A stretch of 63,332 nucleotides of DNA, taken from the NCBI GenBank assembly GCA_025359245.1, contig JANYGW010000037.1:1-63332 (forward strand), read 5' to 3'. Origin of the DNA: Massilia sp. GTDB lineage: Bacteria; Pseudomonadota; Gammaproteobacteria; Burkholderiales; Burkholderiaceae_D. The notes beneath the pieces were generated by a model that ran no database searches, was not told the origin of the DNA, and saw only the letters and a list, made by a program, of their open reading frames with translations. Position numbers and translations under genes: made by a program. Numbering within the stretch: the stretch's first letter is position 1; every line of letters starts with the position of its first letter. Positions 37,241-52,868 of this stretch are shown piece after piece.

Positions 37241-37468
37241 TCAGGTCATAACGGTATGGGCGCCGTACCAAAAATACCGGGATGTTCCGTTCCGATGCTT
37301 TCCAATCTTCAAATCGAATGGATCATTGAATGTTGCCGGATCTGAGATCCAGATTGCATCACGGCTCAAGTCGTTTAGATACGTCATGCCCATGAACTTG
37401 TATCTGCCCACAGCCCCTTCTAGGCGTACCTTCCGAGCAGCCTCCATTGCTCGGGTGGTGTAGGCCAT
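37241..37468 (-). pseudogene. Truncated DUF2971 gene (N-terminal part)
   Basis: About 75 codons carry the DUF2971 opening motif YKFMGMTYLNDLSRDAIWIS followed by DPATFNDPFDLKIG, then unrelated residues and a stop. Complete DUF2971 proteins have some 230-300 residues, so only the first fifth remains. These proteins often sit in defence or mobile regions. Together with the neighbouring S9 fragment it marks a region of deletions at the edge of the helicase-peptidase unit. Confidence 0.55.
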
Positions 37469-37575
37469 ATGTTCTCGCGAGGTAGCCGGCCACAGATGAG
37501 CGGCATGCGTTTGGGACGGTGGGATGGCAGGATGCCACGCATGAGTGCTGCCTCCTTCCTGCTCCATCGCCGAAG

Positions 37576-37738: not shown

Positions 37739-40700
37739 TCATGCTTGGGTTCCAGCTGAGGGCGGGTCTTCGATATAGCCCTTGCGCAGCTTTTCGTCCA
37801 CCAGCTTGCTCAGCTCTCGCAGCGCACGTTCTGCGCTGTCGAACTGCTTGTTGTTGTTTTGGCCCGCGCTGCCTATCCTGCCGTATGTCACGCGCAATTC
37901 GTCGCCCTGCACGCTGGCGCGCCAGAACTTGCGCGATGTGCCCTGTTCGTAACGCAGGCTGCGCACAGGCCCGTCCGCGGCCGCGGGCGGTGGTGGCGTC
38001 TCCTGCGGCGCCGCGGGCGGGTCCATCGGCGCCAGCACCGGGAGCGGCGCGATCTCGACATCCAGCGCACGATCCTCGCCGCCGGCAAGCATGCACTCGA
38101 TGCGGGTCAAGACGCCGTCCGCATCGTCGAGCCAGTCCTTGCCTGGCACGTCGAGCACGCGCCAGCCGAAGCTGCGCAAGATCGCCGGCCGGAACACGTA
38201 ACGTTCCTGCGTGTCGCGCACCGCGTCGGCCGGGCTATCGAGCAGGATCGCCAGGGCATAGCCTGCACCGGACGGATCAACGATCGCCAGGTCGCAGCGC
38301 AACTGCGAGCGCCCCACGTGGACATGCACGTCGTGCCCACGTCCGCGCAGCGCGGCGGCGAGCGCGTCGCGGATGCTGTCGTGCGGCGCCGGCCGCGTGA
38401 ATGCGTCGCCGGCGGCCGGGTTCAGTGCACCGAGCACGCCGCGCGCGCGTTCGCCCTGGCCGGCAGCGCTGGCCTTGGCGAATTCGAGGAAGCCGCGCAG
38501 GGCTGCGGCGCCATCGTTGTGCACATTGGTGATTGCCTGCGGGTCGATCGATGCCACCACCGCCATGCGATGGCGCGCGCGGCTGAAAATGACGTTCAGG
38601 CGCTTTTCGCCGCCACGCTGATTGATCGGGCCGAAGTTCATCAGCATCTTGCCGTCCGCTCCCGGCGCGTAGCAAATGCTCAGGATGATGATGTCGCGCT
38701 CGTCGCCCTGGACGTTTTCCAGGTTCTTCACGAACAGGCCATTGAACTGCTCGTCGTCCTCGCGCACGTAGGCTAGCTCGAGCAGGGCGCCGAAGTCCGG
38801 GTCGTCCGCGCCCAGCGTCTCGAGCGCGCTTTCGATCTCGCTTTGCTGCGCTTCCGAAAAGGCGACGATGCCGATGCTGAGCGGGCATTCGCGCAGCAGC
38901 AGTTCGCGCACGGTGTGGGCGATGTAGCGCGCTTCGGCGCTGTTGCGCCGGTCCGCATATACGCCGTCGTCGAGCCGGTGGTAGCTGATCGGGAGGGCGA
39001 GCAGGGTGTCGGCACCGGTGGCGCCGGCATCGATCATGTCGGAGCGGCGCGCCGGCGCTTCGCCGGCCACCAGGTCGAGCCGGGTGTCGGGAATGGTAAC
39101 CAGGCGGCCGTCGTAGAACGCGGCGTTCGAAAAGCTGATCAGGGACTCGTGGCGGCTGCGGTAGTGCCAGGCCAGCAGCGTGGCCGGCAGGCTGCGCGCG
39201 GCCTGGGCCAGCAGGCTGTCCGAATCGAGGTTGATGGCGATCCGTTCGCCGTCTTCCTCGACCACGATTTCGTCGTCGCCCGTCGTGCCGCCGGTGCTGA
39301 AGAAGCTCGTCGGCGGCAGTTGCATCTCGTCGCCGACGACGATGATCTGGCGCGCGCGGCTCAGCGCCGGCACCGCTTCCTCGACCGGAATCTGGCTCGC
39401 TTCGTCGAAGATGACGACGTCGAACAGCGCGGGCGCGAGCGGCAGCGTGTCCGATACCGACAAGGGGCTCATCAGCCAGACCGGCTTGAGGTCATTGATC
39501 ACCATGCCGGTTTCGTCGTCGCTCAGGTCGCGAATCGAGCGGTAGCGCATGCTCTTGCCGAATTCGTGCTCCAGCTCGCGCCGGCCGGCCGCGTAATTTT
39601 TCTTGAATTGTTTGCCGGCTTCGTCGAGCTGGGTGGCGCCAGGGCCGGACAGGCGCACATGCTCGGCGAACTGCTTGTGCAGCGTGGAGCGGATCACTTG
39701 TGCGTCGAGCGCCAGCAGGTCGCGCTGATGCTGCGTGACCGCGCGCGCCGCCTGCGCCAGGGCGGCGCCGCCGAAGTGCGCCAGCACCGGGCTGTCGCGT
39801 TCGACGCGGCGCAGCGCTTCGCTGGCCACCAGCGCGTCCAGCTGGGCGGGCGCGTGGTCGAGCTGCTGCAGCATGCGCGCCACGCCCGGATCGCCCGCAT
39901 GCAGCGCGCGCAGCATGGGCAGCAGGTCGGGCAGGTCGTCGAGCGATTCGCGCAGGTCGCGCAGCACTTCCTCGATCTGCTCCAGGCGGGCATTGGGTTC
40001 GCACGTCAGTTCGGGGCCGAGCAGCGTGCGCAGCGCGGCGAGCGACTGGCGCGCGGCGGCGGCGGCGCCGGCGGCCGCCAGCGCGTCCGGGTGCGCACGC
40101 AGGGCGGCGACCAGCGCGCGTGGTCCCTGGCCGGCGCGCAGCTGCTGCGCCAGTTGCTCCAGCGCGTTGATGAAGGCGCGCATGTCGGGCACGTCGTAAC
40201 GCTGGCCCAGGGCGGCGTCGGCGCTGTTGAATGCCGCCGCCGCGGCGTGTTCGTCGGCCAGGCTTTCCAGCACCTTGACGAAGCCCGGGTGGACCACGTG
40301 CTGGCCGAAATCGTAGCGGCGCTGCAGTTCGCCGCGCAGGCGCCACCATTGCGGCTGCAGCCAGCGCAGGGCGGACGGCGCCAGGCGGCGCATCAGTGCC
40401 AGGGCAGAGGCTGTATCGATGGCGGTGAGCTTGTCGCGCCAGTGGGCATTGGCGGCCTGCGCCGCCGCCAGCACGGCCGCATTGGCGTCGAGCGCCATGC
40501 GCGCCTCGCGCAACGCGGCGGCCGCTTGCGAGTCCGGTTCGAGCAGGTCCAGGTGGCCGGCCAGCCGCGCTTCGAGCAGCGCGGCGCTGTCGGCGGCAAT
40601 CGTACAGGCCAGCGCGAGCCCGGTGTCAGGGCTGATCAGGGCGCCGGACGCTTCCAGCTGCGGCGTGAGCGCGTCGAATAGCGCTTCGGCCTGGCGGCAC

Positions 40701-43213
40701 AGGGTATCGGCCCGGTGGAACGCCCGCTCGTCGGTCACCAGCGCGGCCGACAGGCAGGCAAACGGATGGGCTGCCAGGCTTTGCAGGCCGAAGCGCTCGC
40801 GCACCAGCTGATGCAAGCGCTGGACCAGGTCGCGCTGGGCATCCCAGGCGGACAATGGCGGCAGCTGTTCGAGCACGGCGTGCGTGGCCTGCGGCGCGGG
40901 CGGCAGCGCGGCGATGCGGCGCAACAGCGTGCGCACGGAGGCGCCCAGTGCATCGGGCGCGGCGGCCACCGCCTGTTCGAACCGGTCGATGCTGCGCTGG
41001 TATCGGGCCAGCGCGCCCACCAAAACCGTACGCCGCGCGTGCAGCGCCTCGCTGTCGTGGGCTTGGCCGATCCACGCTTCATAGCAGCCCTTCAGGTCGG
41101 CGATGAAGGCTTTCTTGTCGCTCTGGGAATCGTGGATCAGCGAGCATAGCGGCGCCAGTCCGGACTGCTTCAGGCGGTTGAACACCACGTCCAGCGCGGC
41201 CCGCTTTTCGCACACGAACAGCACCCGCTTGCCGCGTCCGGCGTAGTCGGCGATCAGGTTGGTGATGGTCTGTGACTTGCCGGTGCCCGGCGGCCCCTGG
41301 ATGATGAAGCTGCGTGCGCTGCGCGCCAGGCCGACGGCGGCGTTCTGCGTCGCGTCGGCGGCCACCACGCTCCATAGTTCGCCCGCGGCGAGCGGCGCCG
41401 GCATGGCCGTTTCCACGGCCCGCGGCTCGATCGAGAACACCTGGTCGAACGACGCATTGGCGGCGGGATCGGCCAGCAGCTGGGCGTAGTCGCGCACCAG
41501 CGACATTTTCTTGTAGTTGAAATTGGCCAGCGACACCTGGGTCAGGTCGAGATCCCAGGCGTAGCGGTGGCCTTCGGACTCCTGCAGCGCATAGCCGGTG
41601 CGCTGCTCGGCGTCGGCGGCCATTTGCGGCTGGCGCAATGCGGGGCTGGGCGGCGCGCCGGCCTCGAATCGCTGCGGCAGCGGACTTGGGCGCACCCACT
41701 GTTCGAACAGGACCCGTCCCAGAGGCCGGTAATCGCCGCGATCATAACTGTATGACGGCAAGCCGGCGCCGGCGCGCATGCGCTGCCCGCTTGTCTTGCG
41801 GCGCTGGTACTGCTGCATGCGCTGCAGGGCCTTGTGGCGCACCAGCTGGATCGAGGCCTGGGACACCAGGCGCAGCTCGACGGCCGGTTCGGAACGGCGG
41901 ATCTGCGCCAGGATGTCGGCGTGGATCGCGGCAATCGACGTCTGTTCGAGCGACACCTTGTCGGGCAGGCGGATGTCGTACAGCTGCGCCAACTGGTGGC
42001 GCAGCACGGGATTGAATTCCGCCTCCGCTTCGCTGGCCTGCAGCAGGTACTGGTCGCGTACGCCCTTGCGCTTGGTCAGCTCGACGGGTAACCACAGCAG
42101 CGGGGTGACGATGCGTTCGTCGGGCGCCTCCTTCAGGTTGTGCCAGCGCAGGAACGCGACCACCAGGCGCAGGTTGTTGGAGCCGAATTCGGCGCGGTCG
42201 CGCCGCGTTTCGACCAGCAATTGGTCCAGCGACGCGGGCAAATACGTCTGCTCGTCAAAGCGCAGCCAGCGCTGCAGCGTGACCGGCTTTCCGGCCAGGA
42301 TCTCGTCGGCGAACGGGCCGCCCCAGGTGCAGATTTGTTCGGCGCGCACGGCGGCGGCCTGCAGCACCAGCGGCACGCTGGCCACGGTCAGGTTGACGGT
42401 GGATGCATTCGGCTTGAAGTACAGCAGGCGGTTGCGGCGCGACAGATCGAACAGGCGGTCGCGCAGGTGCATCAGCACCGCGCTGCGGCGCGAGACGCTG
42501 CCGGTGGCGCCGGCCATGGCGCGTTCGACGTCGAGTGCCGCGGGCTGGTCGCGCCAGCTGCGCAGGCGCAGCGCCAACGCCGCAACTTCGGTGGCGCGCT
42601 TGTGGCGGTTCAGTTCCGTCATCTCGACGATCACCGCGGCGAACACCGGGTGCAGGCGTTCCTGCAGCGTAAACAGGTTGCTGCGGTGGGCAGCGAAGGT
42701 GCGCAGGTCGTCTTCGTCGGCAAAATCGAGTCCGCACGATAACGCCGCCAGGATCATGCCGAGGACGAAAACGTCGGTGCGGTCGTCGTGGTGGCCGATG
42801 CGCTGTTCCCAGCTGCCAGGGCCCGGCAAATACACCGGGCGATCGATGGGCGCATCCGGGTTGGCCTGCAAGACGTCATCGGTGACCGTTTCGCGGCCGT
42901 TCGCATCGCGTTCGCGGTGCAGTGTGCCAAGGATGTTCAGGCCGGACGACGGCATCGGTTGCACCCGGTTGACGGCCTGTATGTCGAGCGACGGCTGCTG
43001 GCCCTCCGGGCGGCGCAGTTCGAGCGCGCCGGACGGGCCGAGAATGACGCTGTTGGGGCCGAGCGCGGCCACCTTGCCTTCGGCGTGCAACGCGGCGAGC
43101 TGTTCGAACAAGGGCAGCATCAGCAGCAGCACGTCGTCGGCGGGGAATGCGATGCCGGCCTGCGCGGCGATCAGGCTGCGCAGGGTGGCTGGTTCGGTGA
43201 TGGCGTCGCTCAT
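37739..43213 (-). CDS. Kinase-like/DUF4011 SF1 helicase/Vsr-like nuclease/WGR fusion, candidate antiphage protein
   Basis: An 1824-residue cytosolic protein. Residues 20-215 resemble a protein-kinase C-lobe (LHAEGKVAALGPNSVILGPS; RTDVFVLGMILAAL) but lack the P-loop, catalytic Lys and HRD Asp, so a pseudokinase is likely. DUF4011 follows (about 240-480, LFDLSRRNRLLYFKP). The SF1 (UPF1/DNA2-type) helicase has Walker A GPPGTGKS (640-647), Walker B FDEASQIP (about 1269-1276), VVGDEMQLPP, motif V NVQGDERD and motif VI NVIFSRARHR. About 1610-1710 is a Vsr/MTES_1575-like nuclease fold (RCDLAIVDPSG, RSFGWRVLDVPGKDW). A Pro-rich linker leads to a C-terminal WGR domain (about 1750-1815, FWRASVQGDELRVTYGRIGS). 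DUF4011-helicase-Vsr proteins are known defence genes. Its ATG overlaps the M48 gene stop by four bases. Confidence 0.85.
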   Translation of the reverse strand: MSDAITEPATLRSLIAAQAGIAFPADDVLLLMLPLFEQLAALHAEGKVAALGPNSVILGPSGALELRRPEGQQPSLDIQAVNRVQPMPSSGLNILGTLHRERDANGRETVTDDVLQANPDAPIDRPVYLPGPGSWEQRIGHHDDRTDVFVLGMILAALSCGLDFADEDDLRTFAAHRSNLFTLQERLHPVFAAVIVEMTELNRHKRATEVAALALRLRSWRDQPAALDVERAMAGATGSVSRRSAVLMHLRDRLFDLSRRNRLLYFKPNASTVNLTVASVPLVLQAAAVRAEQICTWGGPFADEILAGKPVTLQRWLRFDEQTYLPASLDQLLVETRRDRAEFGSNNLRLVVAFLRWHNLKEAPDERIVTPLLWLPVELTKRKGVRDQYLLQASEAEAEFNPVLRHQLAQLYDIRLPDKVSLEQTSIAAIHADILAQIRRSEPAVELRLVSQASIQLVRHKALQRMQQYQRRKTSGQRMRAGAGLPSYSYDRGDYRPLGRVLFEQWVRPSPLPQRFEAGAPPSPALRQPQMAADAEQRTGYALQESEGHRYAWDLDLTQVSLANFNYKKMSLVRDYAQLLADPAANASFDQVFSIEPRAVETAMPAPLAAGELWSVVAADATQNAAVGLARSARSFIIQGPPGTGKSQTITNLIADYAGRGKRVLFVCEKRAALDVVFNRLKQSGLAPLCSLIHDSQSDKKAFIADLKGCYEAWIGQAHDSEALHARRTVLVGALARYQRSIDRFEQAVAAAPDALGASVRTLLRRIAALPPAPQATHAVLEQLPPLSAWDAQRDLVQRLHQLVRERFGLQSLAAHPFACLSAALVTDERAFHRADTLCRQAEALFDALTPQLEASGALISPDTGLALACTIAADSAALLEARLAGHLDLLEPDSQAAAALREARMALDANAAVLAAAQAANAHWRDKLTAIDTASALALMRRLAPSALRWLQPQWWRLRGELQRRYDFGQHVVHPGFVKVLESLADEHAAAAAFNSADAALGQRYDVPDMRAFINALEQLAQQLRAGQGPRALVAALRAHPDALAAAGAAAAARQSLAALRTLLGPELTCEPNARLEQIEEVLRDLRESLDDLPDLLPMLRALHAGDPGVARMLQQLDHAPAQLDALVASEALRRVERDSPVLAHFGGAALAQAARAVTQHQRDLLALDAQVIRSTLHKQFAEHVRLSGPGATQLDEAGKQFKKNYAAGRRELEHEFGKSMRYRSIRDLSDDETGMVINDLKPVWLMSPLSVSDTLPLAPALFDVVIFDEASQIPVEEAVPALSRARQIIVVGDEMQLPPTSFFSTGGTTGDDEIVVEEDGERIAINLDSDSLLAQAARSLPATLLAWHYRSRHESLISFSNAAFYDGRLVTIPDTRLDLVAGEAPARRSDMIDAGATGADTLLALPISYHRLDDGVYADRRNSAEARYIAHTVRELLLRECPLSIGIVAFSEAQQSEIESALETLGADDPDFGALLELAYVREDDEQFNGLFVKNLENVQGDERDIIILSICYAPGADGKMLMNFGPINQRGGEKRLNVIFSRARHRMAVVASIDPQAITNVHNDGAAALRGFLEFAKASAAGQGERARGVLGALNPAAGDAFTRPAPHDSIRDALAAALRGRGHDVHVHVGRSQLRCDLAIVDPSGAGYALAILLDSPADAVRDTQERYVFRPAILRSFGWRVLDVPGKDWLDDADGVLTRIECMLAGGEDRALDVEIAPLPVLAPMDPPAAPQETPPPPAAADGPVRSLRYEQGTSRKFWRASVQGDELRVTYGRIGSAGQNNNKQFDSAERALRELSKLVDEKLRKGYIEDPPSAGTQA

Positions 43214-44424
43214 GCCGGGGATTCCTTGTCCAGTTGTCGCTTGTATTTATCCAGCTCACGCTTGCCCATCGCGGCGTCGCGCCGCAAGCTCGCTTCGAAG
43301 CCGTCGAACGTGCCAAGTTCGCGCGCCAGGCGGCCGGCGCGCAGCAGCGCGCTGTCCTGCTGGTCCGGATCGGCCAGGGCCAGGTCGATCAGTAGCGCAT
43401 TCAAATAGGTCGACACGGCGGCGGCGCCAACGCCGGGCGACAGCGCGGCCGCCAGTTCGGATGGCGCCAGCGCGGGTTCGGCGCCGCTCCAGTCGGGGAA
43501 CATGGCGCGTACCTGGGTCAGCACGGCCTCGCTGGCAAAGTCGGCGTCGGCCAGGAAATGGGCGATGAAGCCGCGCGTGAGGTGCTGCAGATGCAGCTGG
43601 CCCGGCAAATCGAGCCGGTCCAGGGCCAGCGGCCCGTGCAGCCGGGTGGCCAGCCATTCCTGTATGTCGTGCGTTCCTTCCCACCACAGCGCCAGGGCGC
43701 GGGCGCGGATGAAGGTTTCGGGGTGGCTGTGCGCGTTGCTGGCTTGCGCCTCTTGCGCTTCGATTTCGGCGGCCTGGCGCAGGTAGGCGGCGGCATCGAC
43801 GGTGCCGATGCCGGTTTGTATTTTCACCAGGGCGGCAACGGCCGGGCCGACCGCGCCGGCGGCGATGGCCGCGCCGCGGTCGGCGAACAGTTCGGTATGC
43901 AGCGCGTAGCGGCGGTAGGTCTCCTGGTGGCTGGCGTGGGCGCTGCCGCTGGCCAGGCTGTCGTACAGGATGCGGTCGGCCACCAGCAGCTGGCCATCGT
44001 CGCGCGACCAGAGCAGGTAGTGGGACAGCTCATGCCCCAGCACGGCGAGCAGCTCGTCGTGCGACAGGCGTTCGAGCAAGGGGCCCTGCAGCAGGATGTG
44101 GACTTCGCCGGGCACGTAAAAAATCGACGCGTTCATGTCCTGCCCGGGCGACTGGTACAGCGTGGCGGGTGCGTCGATCCCGAGGCGCTCGAGCGCCAGG
44201 TCCAGCGCAGCGTGCACGTCGGCGTGAGCGTCGCGCTCGATGCGGTAGGTGTCGCGCAGCAGCGCCGCACGCAGGGCATCGCGCTGCTCGGCGCCGGTGG
44301 AGCGCGCGCTGGCCCAGTTCCAGACCTCGGGTTCGTGCTGGCGCAAGTAGTCGGCAATCGTGTTGTGATAAGGCAGCGGCGAGAGGGTGGTCCGGTCCGG
44401 GGAAGACATTGACATGCCTGGCAT
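43210..44424 (-). CDS. Cytosolic M48-type metallopeptidase, partner of the helicase fusion
   Basis: A 404-residue zinc peptidase without signal peptide or membrane helices. LLAVLGHELSHYLLW contains HEXXH (131-135), and HTELFADRGAAI the third-ligand Glu (about 178), the M48 arrangement. Usual M48 proteins (HtpX, BepA, Oma1) are membrane or periplasmic, so a soluble cytosolic form is unusual. The C-terminal 180 residues are helical and without known motif. Its stop codon overlaps the ATG of the 1824-residue helicase gene (ATGA), so the products are made together. In-frame ATGs at 44424, 44415 and 44409 are all possible starts; none has a strong ribosome-binding site. A protease that acts when the helicase part detects foreign nucleic acid is a possible model. 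Confidence 0.85.
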   Translation of the reverse strand: MPGMSMSSPDRTTLSPLPYHNTIADYLRQHEPEVWNWASARSTGAEQRDALRAALLRDTYRIERDAHADVHAALDLALERLGIDAPATLYQSPGQDMNASIFYVPGEVHILLQGPLLERLSHDELLAVLGHELSHYLLWSRDDGQLLVADRILYDSLASGSAHASHQETYRRYALHTELFADRGAAIAAGAVGPAVAALVKIQTGIGTVDAAAYLRQAAEIEAQEAQASNAHSHPETFIRARALALWWEGTHDIQEWLATRLHGPLALDRLDLPGQLHLQHLTRGFIAHFLADADFASEAVLTQVRAMFPDWSGAEPALAPSELAAALSPGVGAAAVSTYLNALLIDLALADPDQQDSALLRAGRLARELGTFDGFEASLRRDAAMGKRELDKYKRQLDKESPA

Positions 44425-47300: not shown

Positions 47301-48974
47301 TCATCCAATAACAGCGTGCTCAACTAACACATCTGCCAACTTTTTCTGTTGTTGGTTGGTGGCAATAATGCGCGTTCTCAGCTGGTCGCACATCTCTATC
47401 AATTTTTCTATCTTGGAGACGATGCGGAGTTGCTCTGCGAGGGGGGGGAGCGCTATTTGTGCGTGCAGGACATCCTCACGTGAAATGCCCGGAATAGCTA
47501 TCCCAACTGTAGAATCCTGAAATACTTTCGCTAAAGTCAATAGTAATTTATCGACAAAATTAATGTTAACGAGTATCGGCCGTATAGCCATCAATTGACG
47601 ACTAATTGCGAGTTCGTCTTGAAAGACTGAATTTGTCTTTCCGACCCCCGAGCCTTTCACTGTCACCAGAATATCGCCACAGCATGCAATCGCTCTTCGT
47701 TCTCTTGTATGTCTGGTTGGAATCGGACCATTTTCGCTAAAGTCAGCTGGACCTGTAATGTAGGGTATTGAATCATTTTCTGTTGTTTCGAAATATTCAC
47801 TGGGATTTAAATGCTGTCCCGAAATAAGTTCAATGATTTGGCCAAAATTAATTATTTCCCAGCCGCGTGGTTGATTATAAATTTTTCTGTCTTCGGCAAT
47901 CTTTGGAAATGGTTTCGCTTTCTTTGCTTTGACATCAGAAATTAATCTTGCCTTTTCAGCCTGTACGCGTTTGAGTAGTTCTCTGGCTGGCTCGTCGTTG
48001 GCGTCTTGTGCAACAAGTTTCCCCATGACCGCCAATTGCAGCAAGGTTTGCTTAAGAGCGTCGATACTTGCTTCCGTGGTGAATAATGTGTCAAAATGCG
48101 CGGCCATGCGTTGCCAGTTGGTATGGAGGACTGCTGCGCTTTGCGACTGCGTGAGCGTGCCGAGCAAGTGGCTGACGAGTTGTTCGTGGGCATCGGCGGC
48201 GTCGCTGTGTTGGGCTTCCAGTCGGTCGCACAGGTCCATCAGTTCATCGATTTTAGCGACGATGCGAGTCTGTTCCAAGATTGGCGGTACGGCAAAAAGA
48301 CAATCATTTAAGACTTTATAATGTCGTGCGTAACCGCGGCCTTCGAGTTTTAAACTTACCAATTGTAACCAGAAAAATCTTTCATTTATTGCTATTGGAC
48401 GAAGTATTTTTACGCCATCTGCGCCCGCAACGAAATCGAAATCGATATATTTTCTTGCTGTAGTGTGATCACCAAATACTATAACTGGTCCAGGAATTCG
48501 AATCAGCAAATTTTCATCATCGGTATAACCAGCGACGAACCGTTGCCCCTGATCAATAACGGGAAAACTGCCTGACGTTCTTATATCTGATGATAGTAAT
48601 TGATTGCCGCTAACAGGAATCGGATAGTAGCTATCAGGGAGACGCATCCATTCCCAGCTGTTTGGTATCTTATAAGGAATTTCTTTGTTAAAAATTACAG
48701 AAGGCGATTTGCCTTTTTTGATTTTTCCCGAAGCAATTAATTTTGCTTTCTCGATGTTCATGAACTTGAGCAATTCACTGGCTGGTTCATCGCTTGCATC
48801 CTGCGGAACCAACTTTCCCTGCATGGCGAGTTCTAGAATTAACTCGCGCAGTTTCCTAATGCCGTACACGCTTGAGGCGTTACCGGACGCGCGGCCCCGT
48901 CCTGATTTTTTCTCGGTTTCTGCTGCTGTCCAGATGTCGATGTGATCAGTCAACAGTTGCTGAATCGCGCTCAT
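47301..48974 (-). CDS. hsdS: Type I restriction-modification specificity subunit
   Basis: A 557-residue HsdS with two target-recognition domains. After a 30-residue lead come conserved repeats: LRELILELAMQGKLVPQDAS (about 42-61) and LKQTLLQLAVMGKLVAQDAN (about 308-327), each followed by DEPA-ELLK and a Lys-rich segment, then TRD1 (about 95-235) and TRD2 (about 365-510). Each half ends with the coiled-coil conserved region (EQTRIVAKIDELMDLCDRLE; EQLRIVSKIEKLIEMCDQLR). The two TRDs differ, so the target is a bipartite asymmetric site that cannot be read from sequence. The ATG overlaps the hsdM stop by four bases. The TRDs are notably A/T-rich. Confidence 0.95.
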   Translation of the reverse strand: MSAIQQLLTDHIDIWTAAETEKKSGRGRASGNASSVYGIRKLRELILELAMQGKLVPQDASDEPASELLKFMNIEKAKLIASGKIKKGKSPSVIFNKEIPYKIPNSWEWMRLPDSYYPIPVSGNQLLSSDIRTSGSFPVIDQGQRFVAGYTDDENLLIRIPGPVIVFGDHTTARKYIDFDFVAGADGVKILRPIAINERFFWLQLVSLKLEGRGYARHYKVLNDCLFAVPPILEQTRIVAKIDELMDLCDRLEAQHSDAADAHEQLVSHLLGTLTQSQSAAVLHTNWQRMAAHFDTLFTTEASIDALKQTLLQLAVMGKLVAQDANDEPARELLKRVQAEKARLISDVKAKKAKPFPKIAEDRKIYNQPRGWEIINFGQIIELISGQHLNPSEYFETTENDSIPYITGPADFSENGPIPTRHTRERRAIACCGDILVTVKGSGVGKTNSVFQDELAISRQLMAIRPILVNINFVDKLLLTLAKVFQDSTVGIAIPGISREDVLHAQIALPPLAEQLRIVSKIEKLIEMCDQLRTRIIATNQQQKKLADVLVEHAVIG

Positions 48975-50446
48975 ACCTTGACCTCGCGTTGCAGCGCCTC
49001 AGCCAGTACGTCTTTGAGTTGTCCGCGCAGCGTGGCGATATCATCCTGCATGGACTTGTATTGCGCCAGTAGCAGGTCAGGGTCATGAATTTCCTGCTCG
49101 CCGATGTGTGGGTTCTTGCAATCTAGGTTGTAGTTACGTGCCTTGATTTCTTCTAGGCTGACCTTCCACGCTTGTTCGTTCTCGACACGTTGCTTGAAGT
49201 CGTCAGACTCCATTCCCCACCACGCCGACTCTGTATCGAATTCTTCGATCTTCATCGGCTTGGTCTTGTTGTAGCTTTTTACGCCGGGCGGGTAAGGGTG
49301 CTCGTAGAACCAGATGTGCTGCGTTGGCGTGCCCTTGCTGAAGAAAAGCAGGTTGGTCTTGATGCCGGTGTACGGGGAGAATACGCCATTGGGCAGGCGG
49401 ACAATGGTGTGCAGGTTGCAGTCTTCCAGCAGCTTTTCCTTGATGCGCGACTTGATGCCTTCGCCGAAGAGGAAGCCGTCCGGCAAAACCAGTGCGGCGC
49501 GGCCACCGGCCTTGAGCATTTGCATGATCAGTACCAGGAACAGGTCGGCGGTTTCGCGTGTACGGAAAGCGGCGGGGAAATTGGTCTCGATGCCGTCTTC
49601 TTCCATGCCGCCAAAAGGTGGATTGGTGACGATGACATCGACGCGCTGCTGGGGACCCCAGCTGATTAGCGGGTAAGACAAGGTGTTGTCGTGGCGGATA
49701 TTGATTGGCACGTCGATGCCGTGCAGGATCATGTTGGTGGTGCAGAGCAGGTGCGGCATCGGCTTCTTCTCGATGCCATGAATGCCCGCTTGCAGTCGGC
49801 CTTCGTCTTCGACGGTCTTCACATCTTGCTTGCGGATGTGTTCAATCGAACAGGTCAGGAAGCCGCCCGTGCCGCAGGCCGGATCCATCACTTTTTCGCC
49901 AAGGCGCGGGTTCACCATGCGGACCATGAATTCGGTCACGGCGCGTGGCGTGTAGAACTCGCCCGCGTTGCCTGCGGCCTGCAGGTCGCGCAGCAATTGT
50001 TCGTACATGTCGCCAAACAGGTGGCGCTCCTGCGCTTTGTTGAAGTCAACGCCTTCCTGGATCTTGTTCACGACCTGCCTGATCAGCTGGCCGGACTTCA
50101 TGTAGTTGTAGGCATCCTCGAACACGGAGCGGATCACGTACGCGCGCTGGTCGCCACCCTTTGCTTCTAGCTGTTGAAGGGCGGGGAACATGTCGTTGTC
50201 GAGAAACTGCTTGAGCGCTTCGCCGGTCATGCCTTCTGCGTCGGCAGCCCAGTTACGCCAGCGGTATTTTTCCGGCAGTGGCGATTTGTAGTTGTCTTGC
50301 AGTAGTTCCCATTCGCTCTCGCGGTCGTCGAAGATTTTCAGGAAAAGCATCCAGACCAGCTGGCTAAGACGCTGGGCGTCGCCATCGACGCCGACGTCCT
50401 TGCGCATGATGTCCTGGATGGATTTGATGGTGCTGGAAATACTCAT
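48971..50446 (-). CDS. hsdM: Type I restriction-modification DNA methyltransferase
   Basis: A 491-residue N6-adenine methyltransferase. It has the HsdM N-terminal helical domain (LSQLVWMLFLKIFDDRESEW), the AdoMet-binding motif DPACGTGGF (188-196) and the catalytic NPPF (275-278), with GDMYEQLLRDL and AGEFYTPRAV between. It pairs with HsdS to methylate host sites and with HsdR to restrict foreign DNA. It follows hsdR by 46 bases and is coupled to hsdS by a four-base overlap; the order R-M-S on one strand makes a single operon. Confidence 0.96.
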   Translation of the reverse strand: MSISSTIKSIQDIMRKDVGVDGDAQRLSQLVWMLFLKIFDDRESEWELLQDNYKSPLPEKYRWRNWAADAEGMTGEALKQFLDNDMFPALQQLEAKGGDQRAYVIRSVFEDAYNYMKSGQLIRQVVNKIQEGVDFNKAQERHLFGDMYEQLLRDLQAAGNAGEFYTPRAVTEFMVRMVNPRLGEKVMDPACGTGGFLTCSIEHIRKQDVKTVEDEGRLQAGIHGIEKKPMPHLLCTTNMILHGIDVPINIRHDNTLSYPLISWGPQQRVDVIVTNPPFGGMEEDGIETNFPAAFRTRETADLFLVLIMQMLKAGGRAALVLPDGFLFGEGIKSRIKEKLLEDCNLHTIVRLPNGVFSPYTGIKTNLLFFSKGTPTQHIWFYEHPYPPGVKSYNKTKPMKIEEFDTESAWWGMESDDFKQRVENEQAWKVSLEEIKARNYNLDCKNPHIGEQEIHDPDLLLAQYKSMQDDIATLRGQLKDVLAEALQREVKV

Positions 50447-50492
50447 GAAATGGACGGCTTTACGGTAATGGGTAAGGAGGAAAAACTGACAA

Positions 50493-52868
50493 CTATGCGT
50501 AGAGGTGCTTCTCTAGCTCGTGCAGGGCGGTAGTATAGCCCTGCTTGCCGCCGAAGACCGATACCAGTTCGCTGGCGGTGCCCATGTTCTTGAACGGATC
50601 GAGCGTAAGGATTTTGATGTCTTCAATGTTCTCGATACCGGTGTCGGCGTATTTTTCGAGCAGCGTTTCGAGCACCTTTCGCGCTAGCTCGCCGTATTTA
50701 GCAAAGTAGTTGCGTTTCTTGACGTTGTCGGCACGCTCGCGGCGGGTCAGCGGCGGTTGGTCGAAGGCGACATGGCAGATCAGATCGAAGGCGTCGAAAT
50801 GCTTACCGACTTCTTCGGCCAGCGGTTCGAGCAGGACGCCATGTTCTTCCAGTTCGCGCAGGATAGCGGCCTTGCGCTCGGTCTTGTCCCACCGGCGCAG
50901 GAAGTCATCAAGGGATGAGTAATCCTTGCGCACGGTCTGGCGCGTGTAGTCCTTGAGTGACTCGGTGATTAGCTTGCCTTCTGGGCCGTAATACTGCACA
51001 CGCTCTGCGACGACGTACACCGTCACATCGCCGAGCACGTATTTGACGCGTCCGGGGCCAGGTTCGCCGTCGTCGCCTAGTCCGCCGGTGCCGGTATCTG
51101 TGCCACCAGGTGGTATTGGCTTGCCGTCTTCGCCTATGACTACTTCGTCTGGATCGTTCTCCGGCGGCACGGGCGATTCATCGCCCTTGGGCTCGTAGAT
51201 GATCACGGGTTCGCCATCGAACGCGGGATCGGCAAACAGCTCGGTGGCCTTCTTGAAGTCCATGATGGTGAACCAGAATTTGCCGTAGTCCTCGTTGATG
51301 CGCGTGCCGCGCCCGATCATCTGCTTGAACTCGGTCATCGACTTGATGTGCTGGTCCAGCACCACCAGCTTGCAGGTCTGCGCATCCACACCGGTTGTCA
51401 TCAGCTTGGAGGTAGTAGCGATCACCGGGTAGCGTTCTTCGGGGTTTATGAAGTTGTCCAGCTCTGCCTTGCCTTCGATTTCGTCGCCGGTGATGCGCAT
51501 GACGTATTTGCGGCTTTCCTTGACCCGTTCGGGATTCAGGTTGACCAAGGCTTGGCGCATGCGCTCGGCGTGGTCGATGTCGTCACAGAATACGATGGTC
51601 TTGGCGTAGGGATCAGTCGCGGTTAGAAACTCGGTGATCTTCTTGGCCACCAACTCCGTGCGTTGCTTTAGGATCAGCGTGCGGTCCATGTCGATCTGGT
51701 TGTACACGCGGTCTTCTATTGGCTGGCCTTTGTCGTCAACCTGGCCCTTGCTGGGACGCCAGCCCTGCACATCCCTGTCGATGTCGATACGCACGACTTT
51801 GTACGGCGCGAGAAAACCGTCTTCGATCCCTTGCTTGAGCGTGTAGCTGTAGACCGGTTCGCCAAAATACACGATGCTCGACACATCCTTGGTTTCCTTC
51901 GGTGTCGCCGTCAAGCCGACGTGCGTGGCCGAAGAAAAATAGGCCAGGATTTCGCGCCAAGCCGAGTCTTCAGCGGCACTGCCGCGATGGCACTCGTCGA
52001 TCACGATCAGATCAAAGAAATCCGGCGAGAACTGCTTGTAGATGTTTTGCTCTTCCTCGCTGCCGGTGACGGCCTGATACAAGGACAGGTAGATTTCATA
52101 GCTCTTGTCGATCTGGCGCTTGCTGATTTTCGTCATCGCCGCGCCGAACGGCTTGAAGTCGTTGTTCTTGGTTTGATCCACCAAAATATTGCGGTCAGCC
52201 AGGAACAGTATACGTTTCTTGGTACCCGACTTCCACAAGCGCCAGATGATCTGGAACGCGGTGTATGTTTTTCCGGTGCCTGTTGCCATGACCAGCAATA
52301 TGCGCTGCTGCCCCTTAGCGACGGCTTCCACTGTGTTGTTGATGGCATTGGCCTGATAGTAGCGCGGGGCACGTCCGCTGCCATCGTCGTAGTACGGCAT
52401 CTCAACCGTATGGCGCGCTTCTGCGGTTTCCAGTCCCTTCCATTTGCAATAGCGTTGCCAAAGTTCAGTAGGTGAGGGGAAGGCGTCCAGCGTCAGTTCT
52501 CGTTCGACCTTGTCGGCAAATCCTGTACGGTCATGCATCAAGAATGCGTCGCCGTTGGAGCTGAATACAAACGGAACGCCCAGCGCCTCAGCATAGTTCA
52601 GCGCTTGCTGCATTCCGGACCCAACACTGTGGCCGTTTTCCTTGGCTTCGATGACGGCGATCGGGATGTTGGATTTGTAGTACAGAATGTAGTCGGCGCG
52701 CTTCTGTTCGCCACGCGTATGGAGCTTGCCACGAACGATGACGCGGCCCTTGGTGAAGCTCACTTCTTCGCGAATCTGCGTGTGGAGATCCCAGCCAGCT
52801 GTGGTGATGGCCGGGGTGATGTACTTGGTGCAGATGTCGCGTTCAGAAAGGCTTTTCTTGTCGGTCAT
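50493..52868 (-). CDS. hsdR: Type I restriction-modification endonuclease/translocase subunit
   Basis: A 791-residue HsdR of the shorter EcoEI-like type. The N-terminal nuclease shows Asp59 (RADYILYY) and IEAKE (74-78, the ExK of PD-ExK). The SF2 motor has Walker A MATGTGKT (195-202), DECH (291-294), GLTATPKET, and the motif VI region [12 protein letters not shown]. After an acidic Gly/Pro linker (about 575-620, with [20 protein letters not shown]), the EcoEI-type C-terminal domain runs to the end. All key residues look intact, so restriction activity is expected. First gene of the R-M-S operon. Confidence 0.95.

Follow-up and report, generated by a model that had tools for sequence, protein, structure and literature searches.

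A putative helicase-gated metalloprotease encoded by an overlapping M48 peptidase and DUF4011 helicase gene pair in Massilia

The window analyzed here, a 63,332-nucleotide stretch from Massilia sp. (assembly GCA_025359245.1, contig JANYGW010000037.1, positions 1 to 63,332 of the forward strand), carries two overlapping genes: gene A, encoding a metallopeptidase of family M48, and gene B, encoding a very large protein with a degenerate kinase lobe, a DUF4011 domain, a superfamily 1 (SF1) helicase, a degenerate nuclease fold, and a WGR domain (Table 1). An earlier interpretation made from the letters of the DNA (the sequence-only reading) had put the pair forward as a candidate defense unit. We propose that genes A and B act as one helicase-gated metalloprotease whose likeliest purpose would be defense against invading DNA, a reading to which we assign a probability of about 50%. 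The pair is read as a helicase-gated protease because the SF1 ATPase and the protease are the parts with intact active sites. Since both the kinase and the nuclease are degenerate, the protease would be the sole plausible effector, and an Hhe-like nuclease effector would therefore have been replaced by a protease. The pair is best read as a putative effector-swapped, protease-coupled branch of the DUF4011 helicases, related to Hhe and PDC-S37.

Linkage of the two genes was surveyed by a short-peptide pattern scan with three M48 sequences, run on one genome per species over 84,980 species and not exhaustive, which returned 68 stretches and 30 confirmed M48 loci (L025 and L007 derive from the same genome). 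At 28 of these 30 loci the M48 gene shared its contig with the helicase, which at 26 followed it, whole or with frame breaks. At L034 the helicase starts after the M48 gene and runs off the contig. A lone M48 at the planctomycete locus L037 was ruled out, since the helicase is encoded on that contig and strand at a distance of 7.8 kb. L038 holds M48 residues 2 to 174 followed by 525 bases of other sequence, with the rest of the M48 gene and the helicase on another contig of that genome (L009); L040 holds residues 4 to 105 near a contig end, and a contig of the same strain (L031) opens with residues 88 to 401 and continues into the helicase. The ATGA overlap described in the sequence-only reading is present in the window, and a 4-base overlap recurs at 25 of the 26 related junctions examined (13 bases in the other), which argues for pairing beyond chance.

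Presence and absence follow the same pattern. The window's family has the M48 gene in 4/195 genomes and the full-length helicase class in 4/190, in the same four genomes; other helicase matches in the family are partial, with at most 259 bits against at least 1200 for the full-length class. Only the window's own genome had the helicase class in a 300-genome sample of the order, and a 349-genome sample of the phylum added one genome (G775), in which an M48 gene stands in front of it; among 198 genomes of the family of G775 the class was found in G775 alone. Six sister comparisons indicated purifying selection, with ratios of nonsynonymous to synonymous substitution rates of 0.106 to 0.458 for the M48 gene and 0.084 to 0.334 for the helicase. 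The pair helicases form one clade (Shimodaira-Hasegawa-like approximate likelihood ratio test, 99) in a quick tree with long branches, where a fused helicase (described below) has a very long branch and is left unplaced. As far as sequence conservation can indicate, the M48-helicase pair is a real unit. Two outcomes that the sequence-only reading had named as counting against it, a pair confined to close relatives and an M48 gene commonly found without the helicase, were not seen: the pair occurs in Pseudomonadota and Planctomycetota, and no intact M48 of this subfamily was found in a genome lacking the helicase class.

Protease and helicase are also joined in a single chain. With the M48 profile, the phylum sample yielded a genome (G664) in which M48 is the N terminus of a 2073-residue open reading frame (ORF) with Pfam matches above cut-off to M48 (22.7 bits), TerB (26.1 bits), DUF4011 (32.1 bits), AAA_11, and AAA_12, and to MTES_1575 at 31.9 bits, below the cut-off of 38.2. 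A second fused copy from another genus (L142, genome G1048) is 80% identical over its whole length and has one in-frame TGA. The fused form occurs in 2 of 120 genomes of the family of G664, a gammaproteobacterial lineage. By hhalign, an alignment of gene A matched residues 1 to 430 of the fused chain (324 columns; probability, 99.3; E = 1.1e-20). Linkage in two phyla and this natural fusion bear out the protease-helicase coupling that had been claimed, and recurrence in two distant phyla and one fusion suggests an undescribed helicase-controlled protease. The pair and the single chain of M48, TerB, and helicase may represent two separate origins of the same effector swap.

Among 246 genomes of Planctomycetota, the phylum of L037, the M48 profile had matches in 10, of which five were strong (300 to 496 bits) and five weak (44 to 75 bits). 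All five strong matches have the helicase class, four adjacent and one (G1116) at 7.8 kb. The weak ones (L179 to L183) have no helicase within the 5 to 20 kb examined around each, and two of them align to the fusion through its TerB region; these five mark the edge of the M48 subfamily. These distant M48 genes would accord with a chance arrangement in which a housekeeping M48 gene happens to stand beside an Hhe-type helicase, but that explanation is contradicted by the linkage in two phyla, the conserved overlap, the fusion, and the co-presence in the same four family genomes, and we find it scarcely credible.

Some copies of the pair are damaged or duplicated. The helicase is broken into several frames in L039 (Massilia sp. 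H-1, the nearest M48 relative at 82%) and L036 (Cupriavidus sp. UYMMa02A), and Herbaspirillum sp. RV1423 has a second M48 fragment (L014, positions 217 to 729; residues 4 to 153) upstream of its intact pair, with a 713-amino-acid ORF between them. In genome G125 (L009, L010, and L155), the M48 gene is divided between two contigs near residue 173, the helicase has two TAG codons in its aligned part, and a GGDEF/EAL gene also carries a TAG. Recoding of TAG was rejected because the positions of these stops correspond to unrelated residues; decay or an error of assembly is the likelier cause.

The gene A product belongs to the M48 peptidases, scoring 37.2 bits against Pfam Peptidase_M48 (cut-off, 20.3) with a HELSH zinc site and a downstream ELFAD. 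Both the HEXXH motif and the third glutamate ligand are kept in all 23 aligned M48 proteins, in the four adjacent planctomycete M48 proteins, and in the fusion, and the protease site is predicted to be intact. Its highest 19-residue hydropathy mean (1.74, versus 1.27 to 1.62 in 20 relatives) indicates a protein with no membrane helix, i.e., a soluble one. A sequence search for solved relatives of this M48 found none, and a PDB fold search with the AlphaFold2 model (predicted local distance difference test score [pLDDT], 88.5) gave nothing below an E value of 0.001, the top folds being BepA (E = 0.024), ZMPSTE24 (E = 0.033; probability, 1.00), and abylysin (E = 0.085). In a full-length profile comparison, the C-terminal helical part of gene A lines up with the fusion's TerB region, a match that suggests a TerB-like part; compared by itself with that region, the C-terminal part gave an hhalign probability of 0.6 (E = 0.098), and a TerB domain was not assigned to the stand-alone M48. 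A table of PMC10952713 lists TerB for Shango and Bunzi, two defense systems.

In gene B, the DUF4011 domain and complete SF1 helicase described previously were recovered by Pfam (AAA_11, 67.4 bits; AAA_12, 61.1 bits; AAA_19, 36.4 bits), all Pfam domain calls on both genes lying above curated cut-offs. The kinase C-lobe had no Pfam match. An AlphaFold2 model of residues 1 to 250 (mean pLDDT, 81.3) nevertheless resembled protein kinases in the PDB, with PknB (3orl) as the best match (Foldseek E = 4.8e-5; probability, 1.00; template modeling score, ~0.5). The HRD motif occurs in none of 21 aligned relatives, and the letters DFG occur in one (L008), in a variable stretch away from the expected place; the kinase is therefore considered degenerate, in agreement with the sequence-only reading. 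Helicase motifs I (GPPGTGKSQT) and II (DEASQ), in contrast, are present in 21/21, and PDB sequence matches were to SMUBP-2, UPF1, SEN1, and DNA2; the SF1 motor is thus predicted to be intact.

The nuclease region differs from that of ordinary DUF4011 helicases at its catalytic residues. The glutamate of the ECDG motif, which is Leu 1657 in the window, is kept in 71/71 ordinary DUF4011 helicases and in 0/27 M48-linked ones, where it is leucine in all 21 proteobacterial pair copies and all 5 planctomycete copies and methionine in the fusion. (The 71 are 72 distinct loci minus the fused gene, L079; M48 was checked in the family and phylum samples and partly in the order sample, through 13- to 14-kb stretches around 20 loci in all.) A glutamate of the first helix is present in 68/71 ordinary helicases and 0/21 pair copies, and the YHS...RDRD block is also lost in the pair copies. 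The aspartate of RxD is found in 70/71 ordinary helicases and 21/21 proteobacterial pair copies but is lost in 2/5 planctomycete copies and in the fusion. The Vsr/MTES_1575-like region of the sequence-only reading therefore stands as a fold and falls as an active nuclease: with its catalytic glutamate gone, it is probably inactive.

These residues bear on an alternative in which M48 activates the gene B nuclease by cutting it, so that DNA cleavage would be the effector step. Protease-nuclease pairs with such logic exist: in Hachiman HamMAB, as described in PMC12799240, DNA sensing by a helicase system leads to proteolytic activation of a nuclease, and a helicase-based DNA sensor is coupled to a protease as proposed here. 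The retained RxD aspartate of the 21 proteobacterial copies would fit. However, the catalytic glutamate, the first-helix glutamate, and the RDRD block are lost, as is the RxD aspartate in some planctomycete copies and the fusion, and we regard this alternative as distinctly unlikely. By the same account, HamMAB joins a trypsin-like protease to HamA in one protein and keeps its metallo-β-lactamase pro-nuclease separate, whereas here the protease is M48, the helicase is of the DUF4011/SF1 type, and no third gene is linked in 28 loci.

The WGR domain is C-terminal in gene B, as had been noted, and occurs in 20/21 proteobacterial and 1/5 planctomycete copies. An essential sensor it does not appear to be, and since it is an optional add-on, a WGR-centered model cannot be the core of the mechanism. 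We infer a physical complex of the two proteins, and likewise its trigger, substrate, and purpose, as follows. Gene B would load on an abnormal nucleic acid structure via the SF1 motor and the probably inactive nuclease fold, together with WGR in those copies that have it. Moving along with the use of ATP, it would switch on the M48 subunit or bring it to its substrate, and M48 would cut a protein of the phage or one essential to the host, defending the cell against invading DNA. The closest precedent for a helicase system that senses DNA and sets off a protease is Hachiman HamMAB (PMC12799240).

The protease could instead be a regulator that removes a repressor, or that processes or limits the helicase, with helicase activity alone doing the work. 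Protease-repressor pairs such as CapP-CapH are named in PMC12255303, but no M48-free case of the helicase class was found. In the 28 loci, the most widespread neighbor families were two that each appeared at three loci; as no third gene accompanies the pair repeatedly, there is no linked repressor. We consider a regulatory role unlikely.

Of the kinship to Hhe and Mokosh that had been suggested, domain order and the helicase match remain, and membership in Hhe, ProA, or Mokosh does not. Like Hhe (NF042953; PADLOC PDLC02194), gene B has DUF4011, an SF1 helicase, and an MTES_1575/Vsr-like fold in the same order, but it has a degenerate nuclease, an M48 partner, an added pseudokinase, and usually WGR. 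It scores 444.9 bits against the Hhe model (cut-off, 2000), and it has leucine in place of the catalytic glutamate that ordinary relatives keep. The best-scoring models for gene B were the PADLOC candidate PDC-S37 and ProA (NF058533), at 682 and 686 bits, respectively. Ordinary DUF4011 helicases, however, reach 1233 to 1813 bits against PDC-S37, and the 685.9 bits against ProA fall below its cut-off of 1500. No paper on ProA or PDC-S37 was found in the open-access literature. Because curated cut-offs and the catalytic test failed, gene B was not filed under Hhe or ProA. Mokosh includes a kinase, and the UPF1-type helicase region of MkoA/MkoC matches gene B (E = 5e-33); this partial match covers the helicase alone, the gene B kinase lacks the HRD of an active kinase, and M48 is an addition. 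An M48 metallopeptidase is also encoded among defense genes in the RRDM island of enteropathogenic Escherichia coli, as described in PMC12255303, but there it stands with type I restriction-modification (R-M) genes and DarTG. A search of the open-access literature, judged mostly from titles and the starts of abstracts, found no publication on an M48-DUF4011 helicase pair.

A defense neighborhood had been offered in support of the candidate, and this argument failed. PADLOC models matched one of 116 neighbors at 23 pair loci, a subtilase. At 19 ordinary DUF4011 loci used as a control, 95 neighbors matched 42 models (a count of models and not of genes, since a protein may match several), including, among the 25 listed, type IV restriction, HEC-01, SoFic, Gabija GajB, AriA, and Nhi-unrelated candidates. 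The many defense matches at the control loci show that the procedure works, and hence that the pair lies outside defense islands. The Pfam families listed for the 116 neighbors are those of ordinary chromosomal genes, with two transposases. The pair survey was made without five loci (L009, L026, L027, L036, and L039) and the control without four neighbors of L139; genes were called by a rule of length and GC content at third codon positions, by which at least one antisense ORF (L011) was counted as a gene. Pair loci are patchy and at differing sites; two Duganella loci share most neighbors, judged from the listing. No clean empty site could be defined in the window's genus, because the AraC gene beside the pair had no match at an E value of 1e-40 in the 16 other genomes of the genus searched and, in five relatives that carry the GGDEF/EAL gene, the 18 other window genes compared are all absent from its vicinity.

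The near absence of defense neighbors weighs against the proposed reading, as do several further points. No M48 relatives were found on plasmids or in viral contigs, in a search that had phage and E. coli collections outside it, and no plasmid helicase match covered 80%. A large DUF4011 gene is reported as core in Pseudomonas aeruginosa in PMC10250203, and kinship to Hhe and its relatives therefore does not prove defense. The correlation of M48 and helicase distances (Mantel r = 0.96; P = 0.0001; 21 pairs), which counts for the pairing, could also arise from shared descent, and the RxD aspartate kept by the proteobacterial pair copies leaves some nuclease activity possible.

Several of these observations would suit genome maintenance, in which the helicase travels along DNA and M48 cuts crosslinked or stalled proteins on it, similar in function to SPRTN/Wss1. 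These are gluzincin proteases of a different peptidase family that act on DNA and have DNA-binding parts. Besides the lack of defense neighbors and of plasmid or viral carriage, the presence of WGR in most proteobacterial copies points the same way, as do weak SprT-like Pfam matches, below cut-off, in several M48 proteins and a weak fold match of gene A to the DNA-protein crosslink repair protease 6mdw (E = 2.4). The pair is, however, rare and patchy, and relatives of the helicase sit among defense genes. A LexA-like box with at most one mismatch, sought as a sign of SOS regulation, was present in 0/26 upstream regions, which also counts against maintenance. We treat genome maintenance as a serious but doubtful alternative. 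Given kinship to Hhe, ProA, and PDC-S37, patchiness, and varied sites, all counted for defense, defense is somewhat more probable than a role in clearing protein-DNA complexes.

Table 1. Features of the gene pair in the window
Feature	Position	Strand	Basis
Gene A, predicted soluble M48-family metallopeptidase, 404 aa	43210..44424	-	ORF; Pfam Peptidase_M48
Gene A HELSH zinc-site motif, residues 131-135	44020..44034	-	Third ligand E178, D182 beyond; HExxH...ExxAD/CD in 23/23 aligned M48
Gene A all-helical C-terminal part, residues 273-401, possibly TerB-like	43222..43608	-	AlphaFold2 helices; profile comparison
ATGA overlap of genes A and B	43210..43213	-	ORF ends; same overlap at 25/26 related junctions
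Gene B, 1824-aa pseudokinase-DUF4011-SF1 helicase-degenerate nuclease-WGR protein	37739..43213	-	ORF; Pfam
Gene B degenerate kinase C-lobe, ~residues 25-225	42539..43141	-	AlphaFold2 and Foldseek to PknB
Gene B DUF4011, residues 252-407	41993..42460	-	Pfam, 57.8 bits
Gene B SF1 helicase core, ~residues 612-1560, long insertion	38534..41380	-	Pfam AAA_11, AAA_12; conserved motifs
Gene B MTES_1575 nuclease fold, catalytically degenerate, residues 1606-1709	38087..38398	-	Pfam, 44.5 bits (cut-off, 38.2)
Gene B WGR domain, residues 1756-1815	37769..37948	-	Pfam, 56.2 bits; PDB 2ra8 match

Other features were observed around the pair. The type I R-M island reported nearby is real, with complete-looking HsdS, HsdM, and HsdR at 47301 to 52868 and a third-position GC of 0.43 in hsdS against ~0.8 around it, but its proximity looks incidental. 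A 108-amino-acid ORF (37241 to 37567; best Pfam E = 0.068) adjoins the pair and may be the gene remnant of the sequence-only reading. The sequence GTAGAATC occurs in 11/26 regions upstream of the M48 start (shuffled maximum, 4) and resembles a conserved promoter element, although many of these regions are from related strains. NCBIfam places the WGR part on NF047464, named as a Leptospira fibronectin-binding protein, far below cut-off, which makes the name a trap. In L129, a stretch around an ordinary DUF4011 helicase, an open frame of 602 residues contains the peptidase motif HEVSH.

We tentatively suggest, at somewhat less than even odds, that the pair is an undescribed two-gene immune system of Pseudomonadota and Planctomycetota in which a former helicase-nuclease defense protein, having lost its kinase and nuclease activities, senses nucleic acid and regulates a cytosolic M48 protease, with proteolysis replacing DNA cleavage as the response to infection. 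Two clear active sites (Walker A and HEXXH) make the idea testable with few mutants. Should the pair instead serve repair, bacteria would have a protease-helicase dedicated to protein-DNA complexes, of which we know of no described example. If the defensive reading is true, the few protease-based bacterial conflict systems would gain a metalloprotease effector operated by an SF1 helicase, and the family would have undergone an effector swap in which the nuclease fold persists as a scaffold, its active site lost precisely where a protease was acquired.

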